Below, piece by piece: positions 26,890 to 30,876 of a stretch of 64,000 bases of DNA (position 1 is the first letter of the stretch; each line of letters begins with the position of its first letter). The stretch is from Flavobacterium sp. (GTDB lineage Bacteria; Bacteroidota; Bacteroidia; Flavobacteriales; Flavobacteriaceae), in contig JAUVAS010000002.1 of assembly GCA_030591585.1 (NCBI GenBank), forward strand, positions 62,001 through 126,000, in the 5' to 3' direction. The notes below the pieces were generated by a model. The model was not told the DNA's origin. It did no database searches and saw only the letters and a list, made by a program, of their open reading frames with translations. The translations under genes were made by a program, and so were the position numbers.

Positions 26890-27321
26890 TTAATTAGGGA
26901 AAAGTACATCTAGGTTTTTTTTTGCTTCATTTAGGTTATTTGATGTCTTATTAATATAAATATTATTAGAACTAACTCCCATATCTATAAACCAGTCTGT
27001 CCAAAATCTAGTTAAAATTCTAAACTCTGAAGTACATGGTTTAAGAGGCTTTAACTTTGTTCTAGGTCTAGATTCATTGTTTATACAATCAGGATTTAAT
27101 TCCAGTATTGTAATTGTTGTGTTTTCAGGAAGTTTATACTCTGAACTAACTATCCCCCATTTTTGGGTTTCATATAATTTTTGCCAATTTTTACTTGCTC
27201 TTAATGGGTTAAGAATTGATCCTTCTAGATGGCCAATTTTTTTATCTTTATTTGTTGGATTTTCTCCTGTCATATACATATAGCCGTCTGTGAAAATAAT
27301 TATATGATTGTTAGCTTTGCT
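26890..27321 (-). pseudogene. C-terminal fragment of a larger (vWA-like) protein
   Basis: An ATG at 27279 would give 129 aa without a signal or N-terminal domain. Coding similarity in the same frame extends upstream of that ATG (NHIIIFTDGYMYMTG), up to a stop at 27322-27324. IIIFTDGYM resembles a central strand of a von Willebrand A-like domain, so the piece looks like the second half of such a protein. The first half is absent and is replaced by a fragment of an unrelated lipoprotein. Confidence 0.5.
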
Positions 27322-27491
27322 CTAATAATCCATCCTGCCATTATTTGTGTATCTTCTTCTGAAAGATTTCCTCCTTTTTTTATTTCTTTCGCATCTAATA
27401 CAAGATTTTCTTCACTATATTTTTTATCTAAGGGTGTTGTACAAGAAATAATTAAGAAAGTAATTACACTGAATAGTAATATTTTTTTCAT
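27300..27491 (-). pseudogene. N-terminal lipoprotein fragment
   Basis: This 63-residue open frame has a lipoprotein signal (FLIISC, Cys at 17) and then EENLVLDAKEIKKGGNLSEE and IMAGWIIRAKL. The pattern (LSEED...GWIIRAKL) looks like the start of a longer lipoprotein, but the frame ends abruptly inside the IRAKL helix, exactly where the next gene's truncated domain begins. It could still be a short functional protein; I favour a deletion junction. Confidence 0.45.
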
Positions 27492-27561
27492 TTTGTTATT
27501 ATTTAAAATTTTGAACTTTTAATTCAATTAAAGTTGTTCAAATCTATACCCTTAAAACAAA

Positions 27562-27590
27562 AAATCCTTACGGATTTCCGTAAGGATTTG
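27562..27590 (-). terminator. Perfect 13-bp hairpin after the lipoprotein gene
   Basis: Arms 27562-27574 and 27577-27589 pair perfectly around two bases, with a T-rich run on the minus-strand side. It should terminate the 27651-28286 message. The inner ttacggatttccgtaa (27568-27583) is one of three such inverted repeats around the two-component genes. Confidence 0.75.
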
Positions 27591-27650: not shown

Positions 27651-28286
27651 TTACCAATTACCTAAACCTGGATGGTCTGGGCTATTGTAATCAATCCCTT
27701 CTATACCATTGCAAGGGTCGTTGATTATGGATTGAATTATTGCAAATTCTCCCCAAATCATAGGCCCAATTTCAGTGCCATCCACATTATACCAAATTCC
27801 ATCTGTTAAAGTAGCATCTAATGGAGCAGCAATAATTTTAATAAAATCATCGTACTCACACATGTTTCCATTTACATCATCATAGGTTGTCATCCAATGA
27901 TTTGTTAACCAAGCCCCAGAGCCTCTATAGGCATCGTAGCCAAGGTGTCTGTCTAATAATAAATCACCATCACAATCTTTATTGGAAAGCCAAGCTTCAT
28001 TCCACTTCATGACTAATTTCCATTCTGGGTATCCATAATCACCGTTATACATATGAGCTTGGTAGTTATAACCAAATTCTGTATAACCAGTTTCAATAGG
28101 GTTGCCGCCAGAATCTACTAATAAGCCACTTGGAATAGTTGTGCAATCACTAGGGGTTCTAGTTGGAGATGTTGACTCAGTAGTATAATCTGCACTTACT
28201 TCAGCATCAATAGAATCCTTTTGACAAGAAATTGTAATTAAAGCGATAATAACGATACCACTTACTAAATAAAAAAACTTTTTCAT
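27651..28286 (-). CDS. Lipoprotein of unknown function
   Basis: This 211-residue lipoprotein has its lipobox around LITISC (Cys about 21), followed by a Ser/Thr-rich linker. The folded part is compact and acidic with many Trp, Tyr and Gly residues: NEAWLSNKDCDGDLLLDRHLG then AYRGSGAWLTNHWMTTYDD and CEYDDFIKI. DxDGD-like and Cys residues suggest a calcium- or disulfide-stabilised secreted domain. It is preceded by a 258-bp leader with a predicted pseudoknot, downstream of a two-component operon on the same strand, so it is a natural candidate for that system's output. No function is known to me. Confidence 0.7.
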   Translation of the reverse strand: MKKFFYLVSGIVIIALITISCQKDSIDAEVSADYTTESTSPTRTPSDCTTIPSGLLVDSGGNPIETGYTEFGYNYQAHMYNGDYGYPEWKLVMKWNEAWLSNKDCDGDLLLDRHLGYDAYRGSGAWLTNHWMTTYDDVNGNMCEYDDFIKIIAAPLDATLTDGIWYNVDGTEIGPMIWGEFAIIQSIINDPCNGIEGIDYNSPDHPGLGNW

Positions 28287-28307
28287 TATAATATATATTT
28301 AAATTAA

Positions 28308-28372
28308 GGAGCTTTAAAAAAAGGATTAGTTATTCCTTAAAAAGATATAAAGCTCCATAGTATCTTTTTAAG
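28308..28372 (-). promoter_or_regulatory. Predicted H-type RNA pseudoknot in the lipoprotein leader
   Basis: Two inverted repeats interlock. Stem 1: cttaaaaagata at 28336-28347 pairs with 28361-28372 (12 bp). Stem 2: ggagcttta at 28308-28316 pairs with taaagctcc at 28348-28356 (9 bp), whose arm lies in the loop of stem 1. On the minus strand the order is S1, 4 nt, S2, 0 nt, S1', 19 nt, S2', a classic coaxial geometry. S2' ends 21 nt before the ATG at 28286. Confidence 0.5.
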
Positions 28373-28505
28373 AAAAAAATTCACAATTATAAAGCTCAGA
28401 GAGATCGGGGCGACCTTGTTATTATAACAATTAAAAGAATCTAGTATTAACTATCTAATTACTTACATAAGTAAAACAAAATTAAAACTATTAAATAAAT
28501 ATTCC

Positions 28506-28521
28506 TTACGGTTTTCCGCAA
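28506..28521. promoter_or_regulatory. Candidate operator, ttacgg-N4-ccgcaa
   Basis: This near-perfect 6-4-6 inverted repeat lies between the response-regulator stop and the lipoprotein leader. Matching sites are at 27568-27583 (perfect) and 29285-29300 (perfect, inside the kinase gene). Confidence 0.35.
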
Positions 28522-28544: not shown

Positions 28545-29210
28545 CTATATAAGCCCTATATCTTTTACTATTGACACTAAGTGTATCACGTTTTTGGCTT
28601 TAAAATGAGAGCGTAGTGTATTTATATGTTTTTCTATAGAACTCAAACTACTTGGGGTGATGTTTTTTTTACTAAAATCTTTGCTAATTTCACTTTGAGA
28701 TAATCCATTTGACAAAAGATTTAAAAGTTCTATATCATAATCATCTATTTCTAAATCTAATTTGGGATTTAAAGCATTTTCAACTAGTGGAGATAAATAC
28801 TTTTTTTTAATTGATACAGAACGAATGGCCGCAGATAAATCTATCAAACCTTTACGTCCTTTGCATACGTAGGCATCAATTTTATAGCCGTTCATTAATT
28901 TTCTTACCTTTTGAAGTCGATTCTCAACAGAGTAAGCTATAATTTTTAATTCGGGATGCTCTTCTTTTAAAACTTTTATGAGTTCTTCTCCTGATGTAAA
29001 CTTTTGTTTTCGATAATCTTCTTTAAAAGATAAATCAGTGATTAATAAATCATAAGGGGACTTGTCTCTAATTGCTTTTTTCACCTTTAAATAGGCGTCA
29101 TCACAATATTGAACTTGGTCTATATCTATTATATTTAAACCTGAAAGAGTTGAAACCACACCTTTGTTGATGTCATCCATATCTTCAGCTATCAAAACCT
29201 TATTAAACAT
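28545..29210 (-). CDS. Response regulator, receiver plus LuxR-type HTH
   Basis: This 221-residue regulator has a receiver domain (1-125), with acidic residues DMD near the start and the likely phosphoacceptor Asp59 in LLITDLS. The C-terminal helix-turn-helix spans about 155-215 (LLNLLSNGLSQSEISKDF then SIEKHINTLRSHFKAKNVIHL). The first Asp cluster is EDMDD and the distal Lys is in YVCKGRK. It is translated 1 nt after the histidine-kinase stop, so the two are a cognate pair. The nearest possible target is the lipoprotein gene downstream. Confidence 0.9.
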   Translation of the reverse strand: MFNKVLIAEDMDDINKGVVSTLSGLNIIDIDQVQYCDDAYLKVKKAIRDKSPYDLLITDLSFKEDYRKQKFTSGEELIKVLKEEHPELKIIAYSVENRLQKVRKLMNGYKIDAYVCKGRKGLIDLSAAIRSVSIKKKYLSPLVENALNPKLDLEIDDYDIELLNLLSNGLSQSEISKDFSKKNITPSSLSSIEKHINTLRSHFKAKNVIHLVSIVKDIGLI

Positions 29211-29211
29211 A

Positions 29212-30876
29212 TTAAATCGATATTTTTGCTTTAAACCCTTTGTTTATATTAGATTCAAAATTAATCGATCCGTTAATAGATTCCATACGGGTTTCCGTAT
29301 TCTGTAACCCTACCTTTTTTTCTAATTCACATCCAATACCATTGTCTGTGTATTGAATAGTTGTTTTGTTATTTTCTTGCTTAAATGTTAATACCACTAG
29401 GGTTGCATCACTATGCTTTCTCATGTTGGTCATTAGCTCTTGAAGTACTCTATAAATAGTTGTTTTTTTTAAGTTTGAAAACTCTTCCCAATTTATTTCT
29501 TTGAAGTCTTTTGTAATTATGGAAATCTCATCGTTTTTATAGCTTACTAATAAATCCAAAAGCATTTCTGCAAAGCCTTCGTCAATATCTATGGCAGCGT
29601 TCTCTTTAGAAATATCCCTTGTTTTATTATAAATCTCTTCAATGTCATCTAATATTTCATTCGAATCACTAGTATTGCTTTGAAGTTTTGTCATCACTTG
29701 ATATATTTCATTCGCAACTTCGTCATGGATCTTTTTTGAAATACGAGTCTCCGTTTTATAGATTTGCTCTAGCTTTTCTTTTTTAGTCCTTGCCTTAAAA
29801 ACAAAATAAGAAGAAATTAATAACAGTAATATAAAAATAGCAAGACCTAGGTATGTTAATTTTAATTGTTTCTCTTTTTCCCTTTGCAATGCGTTTTCTT
29901 GAGCTATTTTTTCCTGTTTATCATATCTATATTTATTAAAGGAATATTCATTTTTACGAATTTGCTCAGTTTTAGTTATACTATCTGTTAATCGTTTATA
30001 TTCAATGACTTTTATATCCTCACTTAACTCGATATATAATGATAATGCGTCTTTAACATAAGTTTTATTGTTTATTTTATTTACAACTATATAGGCACTA
30101 TCAGCAAATAATTTAGCTTTATTTTTATCATTTCTATCTTTATAAAAATAAAATAAGTTTTTATAAGTTAAATAAGTTCCAATGATGTCATTTTCTCTTT
30201 TTCTTATTGTTAATGATATATTTAAATTATTAAATGCTTCAGATAAATTCAATTTTGTCTGTACAGCCCCTAAATTATTTAATACTCTTGCTTTTTGTAA
30301 ATGATCGCTATTATTTATGGCTTTATTATAAATTACTTCAAATTGTTCTAATGCTAATTCATATTGTTTTAAATCATAATAAATATTTGCTATATTATTA
30401 ATAATAGTAATACTGTCTTTTTGTTTATTGGTGATTTTTAGAGCATCTTTATATACTTCAATTGCTTTATTATAATCACTTGAAGTTCTATAAACAATCC
30501 CTAAATGAGTTAATAAACCATATCTCGATTGATATAAGCTATCATTTTGTTTAAAGTTATCTAATAAATTAATTGCTTCAATTGCAGCTCCTTGACTTTC
30601 ATAGATCATTCCCATTCTCAATTGGCATTCGGCAATCATTCTCAAATCCGAAATTGCTCTTAAGGTGTCTTTTTTTAAAAGTGCGCTAATTTTATCTTGA
30701 TGGTAAAAATTATAACTAGACAATAAATCTGAATTATTCTTTGGGCTAATTACTTTATGATAATAGAAATAAGTACTATCTGTTTTCTCCTGAGAATAAA
30801 GGTCATTGTCGTTTAATAAACAAAGAAGGCTTGTTGCAAAATAAAAATAGAGGAATGAATTTTTAATTATTTTCAT
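29212..30876 (-). CDS. TPR-containing sensor histidine kinase
   Basis: This 554-residue kinase has a signal/anchor (1-29), a periplasmic run of tetratricopeptide repeats (about 60-275; for example YNKAIEVYKDALKIT and YELALEQFEVIYNKA), a coiled linker, a membrane helix (about 340-365), and a NarX/DesK-type dimerisation helix with the phospho-His in SKKIHDEVANEIYQ. The HATPase_c domain follows (N-box LQELMTNMRKHSD at about 478-490, YTDNGIG near 509-515). TPR-sensor kinases of this type are common in flavobacteria. The signal sensed is unknown. Confidence 0.93.
   Translation of the reverse strand: MKIIKNSFLYFYFATSLLCLLNDNDLYSQEKTDSTYFYYHKVISPKNNSDLLSSYNFYHQDKISALLKKDTLRAISDLRMIAECQLRMGMIYESQGAAIEAINLLDNFKQNDSLYQSRYGLLTHLGIVYRTSSDYNKAIEVYKDALKITNKQKDSITIINNIANIYYDLKQYELALEQFEVIYNKAINNSDHLQKARVLNNLGAVQTKLNLSEAFNNLNISLTIRKRENDIIGTYLTYKNLFYFYKDRNDKNKAKLFADSAYIVVNKINNKTYVKDALSLYIELSEDIKVIEYKRLTDSITKTEQIRKNEYSFNKYRYDKQEKIAQENALQREKEKQLKLTYLGLAIFILLLLISSYFVFKARTKKEKLEQIYKTETRISKKIHDEVANEIYQVMTKLQSNTSDSNEILDDIEEIYNKTRDISKENAAIDIDEGFAEMLLDLLVSYKNDEISIITKDFKEINWEEFSNLKKTTIYRVLQELMTNMRKHSDATLVVLTFKQENNKTTIQYTDNGIGCELEKKVGLQNTETRMESINGSINFESNINKGFKAKISI

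Follow-up and report, generated by a model that had tools for sequence, protein, structure and literature searches.

A structured lipoprotein leader able to form an H-type pseudoknot, next to a candidate response-regulator promoter in Flavobacterium sp.

Regulatory H-type pseudoknots are found in several bacterial mRNA leaders, such as the preQ1-I riboswitch and the S15 and alpha-operon leaders, and mRNAs of outer-membrane proteins can carry stabilising hairpins of the ompA type at their 5' end. At the DNA level, activators of the NarL/LuxR type can use sites that overlap the upstream promoter element. For the Flavobacteriaceae, structured 5' untranslated regions (UTRs) and a Flavo-1 motif have been described (PMC9723704). 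The locus presented here, in a 64-kb stretch of Flavobacterium sp. DNA analysed as a whole (the window), resembles each of these in part. With the H-type leader pseudoknots it shares an interlocked two-stem geometry near a start codon, but the AUG lies outside the structure, the second stem (S2) is not conserved and a nested competitor is, by our estimate, equally stable. As in the ompA type, an envelope-protein gene has a hairpin in its leader and the start codon region is free; however, the first stem (S1) lies ~100 nt inside the predicted transcript and not at its 5' end. The locus also has a structured leader in a flavobacterial genome, as in the published 5' UTRs, but one that gives no Flavo-1 match. 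Finally, the short dyad, the fixed distance to the -7 box and the adjoining regulator gene are reminiscent of NarL/LuxR-type sites. Here, however, the dyad is TACGG-N4-CCGTA at exactly 22 bp from TAnnTTTG, an arrangement of which no description was found in the literature searched.

The leader belongs to a lipoprotein gene that adjoins a two-component pair, with the following features:

27539–27583, minus strand: second dyad (27568–27583), 22 bp and TAGATTTG (27539–27546), upstream of the 63-aa lipoprotein-like gene
~27300–27491, minus strand: 63-aa lipoprotein-like frame (MKKILLFSVITFLIISC...), 3' of the second dyad and below the length of the ORF list
27651–28286, minus strand: lipoprotein gene, 211 aa, owner of the leader; no Pfam or NCBIfam family
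28287–28472, minus strand: predicted 5' UTR of ~186 nt, its start placed from the -7 box
28477–28484, minus strand: -7 box TAATTTTG, Bacteroidota TAnnTTTG
28506–28521, minus strand: dyad TTGCGGAAAACCGTAA (TTGCGG-AAAA-CCGTAA), candidate response-regulator operator directly 3' of the regulator gene
28545–29210, minus strand: response regulator with receiver domain and weak NarL/RcsB-type similarity
29212–30876, minus strand: histidine kinase with TPR repeats
29256–29299 of the window: dyad inside the kinase gene, where it overlaps a conserved kinase motif (in other loci, ~90 nt ahead of the regulator ATG)

The receiver domain of the regulator matches slightly under the Pfam cut-off and no DNA-binding domain scored, so that a NarL type is suggested by the weak NCBIfam similarity. 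Based on the Bacteroidota -7 box, which spans -12 to -5 relative to the start (PMC9723704), the mRNA would begin at ~28472. A leader of 186 nt would be long for the group, given a mean of 33 nt in F. johnsoniae (PMC6847099) and a mean of 65 and a median of 24 in F. psychrophilum (PMC9723704).

The dyad TGCGGAAAACCGTA stands upstream of the -7 box, with exactly 22 bp between its 14-bp core and the box. This spacing was first noticed in the window and in loci L047 and L048, after which 31 loci, mostly independent of the pattern, were chosen by their regulator gene. In 19 of these, the dyad occurs within 800 nt 3' of the regulator, with 0 for a reversed-pattern control, and all 14 of the -7 boxes found within 50 nt of a dyad are at exactly 22 bp. 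A candidate operator at a fixed distance from the -7 box is thus present in orthologous loci, as for a response-regulator-dependent sigma-A promoter. Across the family, the dyad-22-TAnnTTTG pattern was retrieved in 122 of 399 genomes, with three single matches for the reversed control among those listed; many of the genome matches are coding sites in the kinase gene, some of them close to its 3' end at the place of a conserved kinase motif. Taken together, the dyad and the -7 box are a candidate operator and promoter, and the neighbouring two-component regulator probably acts through them.

The arrangement of dyad, 22 bp and box 3' of a TPR-kinase/response-regulator pair is seen for both dyads of the window and in L047, L048, L127, L130, L132, L133, L134, L137, L141, L142, L146 and L151. 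The dyad at C114:996 has no such box at that distance. Most of the 31 loci also have a dyad, often with a -7 box at 22 bp, in the 3' coding end of the kinase gene, where it might be an internal promoter of the regulator gene or only reflect codon choice. The dyads can form hairpins. A reading as plain terminators was dropped once the regulator-chosen loci, too, showed 22 bp between dyad and TAnnTTTG; the dyad at 27568–27583 has a U-run behind it and could be a terminator, which counts against the operator reading.

Within the leader, the following elements were identified:

28361–28372, minus strand: 5' arm of S1, CTTAAAAAGATA, pairing with TATCTTTTTAAG
28336–28347, minus strand: 3' arm of S1, TATCTTTTTAAG, completing a 12-bp stem
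28348–28356, minus strand: 5' arm of S2, GGAGCTTTA (donor 2), within the S1 loop; no counterpart in the paralogue
28308–28316, minus strand: 3' arm of S2, TAAAGCTCC (acceptor); no counterpart in the paralogue
28388–28397, minus strand: third copy, GAGCTTTATA (donor 1), of which 28390–28397 pairs with 28309–28316 in the nested minimum-energy fold

On the minus strand, S1 (12 bp) and S2 (9 bp) interlock with the loops of 4, 0 and 19 nt that the earlier note had described, S2 ending 21 nt before the ATG of the lipoprotein (28286). Two interlocked stems with feasible loops, as in a regulatory H-type pseudoknot, are therefore present in this leader. The 12/9 interlock is unique within the window and was found in 0 of 2000 dinucleotide shuffles of the 258-nt intergenic region and in 0 of 60 local shuffles of the whole window. 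Interlocks of at least 9 and at least 9 bp appeared in 3 of the 2000 intergenic shuffles and in 3 of the 60 whole-window shuffles (5%), against one observed. The pseudoknot geometry is above chance, though it was picked post hoc from 64 kb. S1 is also the longest perfect hairpin among the 37 gene leaders compared in the window. A leader peptide encoded by a small frame in the S1 loop, ATGGAGCTTTATATCTTTTTAAGGAATAACTAA, was rejected, as the paralogue has no ATG there.

The leader folds better than its own shuffles (z = -3.9 for the nested structure). Without pseudoknots, S1 is kept and the acceptor pairs around it with the third copy at a probability near 1 (-21.7 kcal/mol); the further copy had been proposed as an alternative arm, and standard folding indeed prefers it as partner. 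The stacks contribute -15.3 (S1) and -16.9 kcal/mol (S2), and the Dirks-Pierce pseudoknot penalty is ~9.6 kcal/mol. With this penalty, a hand sum of both stacks gives ~-22 kcal/mol for the pseudoknot, so that the two folds are treated as about equal in energy, the pseudoknot side being a hand estimate. In an RNA that starts at S1, folding predicts that the acceptor and donor 2 form a simple hairpin and S1 is lost.

S1 is AU-rich and is followed by GAAUAACUAAUCC, in contrast to the G+C-rich stem with a direct U-run of an intrinsic terminator. Since no U-run directly follows S1 and the element lies inside the predicted transcript, with its end 21 nt short of the ATG, the view that this is not a plain terminator holds.

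We consider the most probable explanation, at roughly 0.5, to be a structured lipoprotein 5' UTR of ~186 nt in which the hairpin has a constitutive role, with transcription driven by the adjacent TPR-kinase/response-regulator pair via the dyad operator. The response regulator would act through the dyad 22 bp upstream of the -7 box to control transcription of the lipoprotein gene. In the predicted transcript, the acceptor UAAAGCUC(C) would have two possible partners: donor 1, in the fold nested around S1, or donor 2, in the pseudoknot. In both folds, S1, an AU-rich hairpin that appears to be retained in the paralogous leader, is predicted to be formed and the AU-rich 21 nt before the AUG to be largely free, which makes a constitutive role likely. 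S1 might then stabilise or insulate the mRNA and keep the initiation region open, with regulation taking place at transcription. An unpaired initiation region is favoured for translation in Flavobacterium (PMC6847099). When the far-upstream TTGTTATAATA is included in the fold, it pairs with the region of the start codon; this would speak for translational repression and counts against a constitutive leader.

The only alignable leader is that of a lipoprotein paralogue (70% identity), which the same genome carries on a different contig. Since MAFFT misplaced the hairpin when aligning the two leaders, the S1 pairs were compared directly. The paralogous leader is identical over the last ~17 nt before the ATG and has the S1 hairpin with 11 of 12 pairs kept: pair 2 shows a two-sided change (T-A to A-T), pair 11 a one-sided change, and pair 1 is lost. 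The apparent conservation of S1 comes from this single paralogue, and most S1 pairs are invariant. Both S2 arms and the third copy are missing there, with no GAGCTTTA or TAAAGCT anywhere in the paralogous leader. The frame of the paralogous gene is off from its own ATG after a seven-T run (L025:6100-6141, minus strand); the gene may be a pseudogene or have a phase-variable tract, or the shift may be a sequencing error.

When 15 nt between two TTTAAA repeats are removed from the leader of the window, nearly the paralogue sequence is obtained, so that a single indel would account for the presence or absence of the S2 3' arm. It is accordingly possible, if on the unlikely side, that S2 owes its existence to a short indel and is a functionless chance pairing within an AU-rich intergenic region, while S1 may be a stability hairpin. 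Such an origin is compatible with the promoter part of the preferred explanation and denies the repeats any role. It would also fit with the interlocks of at least 9/9 bp in 5% of the shuffled windows and with the GAGCTTTA-N20-50-TAAAGCTC inverted pair, found at this locus only among 19 genomes of the genus. On the other hand, no shuffle reproduced the 12/9 interlock, and the triple repeat is rare.

The lipoprotein has few homologues. Two at 42–44% identity occur in another genus, one in another family of the order, a distant relative in an unplaced MAG (one match in a scan of contigs) and a 38% match on a haloarchaeal plasmid, with none in the other 18 genomes of the genus. The more distant homologues have leaders of unrelated sequence, with folds hardly better than those of shuffles. 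Leader DNA matches in other genomes are AT-rich, 23–52 nt long and were taken as chance. The leaders of both 42–44% homologues (L031 and L032) have a TACCCTNATAAGGGTA dyad in common, which is unrelated to the dyad of the window; the TACCCTNATAAGGGTA dyads were rejected as the same operator type, their geometry differing from the dyad-22-bp pattern.

The earlier note had suggested a cis-acting RNA switch or translational control element. Here, donors 1 and 2 would compete for the acceptor, and a change between nested fold and pseudoknot, for which a ligand, a protein or the speed of transcription might be the trigger, would alter translation or mRNA stability. The three GAGCTTTA copies, two direct and one inverted, fit this well, as an 8-mer with at least three G/C in such an arrangement was found in only 4 of 5000 shuffles, and so does the near-equal energy of the two folds. 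However, the paralogue keeps S1 without S2, which occurs in no homologue, and there is no covariation for S2 and no conservation of both stems in homologous leaders. Rfam at the gathering score finds only a tRNA in the window and nothing in the leader, and matches at a relaxed threshold are at chance level. As the same 8–9 nt are sequestered in either fold and the region around the start codon is alike in both, no output of a switch is evident. A pseudoknot can be formed by the leader, while an RNA switch is not supported and seems improbable. Another version is a lineage-specific switch in which the identical donors 28390–28397 and 28348–28355 compete for 28309–28316 in a transcript under two-component control; we regard it as very doubtful.

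Very doubtful, too, is a purely DNA-level role, in which the TATAAAGCTC direct repeats (28346–28355 and 28388–28397) and their inverted copy (28309–28318) are sites of a DNA-binding protein and the RNA geometry is incidental: the repeats are 42 bp apart, i.e. about four helical turns, and the exact 10-mer occurs twice in the window, both times here, but they lie at least 75 nt downstream of the predicted start, copies with one mismatch are spread over the window near chance (13 versus 8.4 expected) and the repeats are missing from the paralogue.

Returning to the preferred explanation, a constitutive structured leader behind a promoter of the response regulator, the RNA element itself would add one single-locus case to the structured lipoprotein leaders. 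Of more use is the promoter geometry, in which dyad and -7 box are 22 bp apart and adjoin a widespread TPR-kinase/response-regulator pair. It offers a testable candidate regulon for a regulator family that is present in 144 of the 399 sampled genomes of the Flavobacteriaceae.
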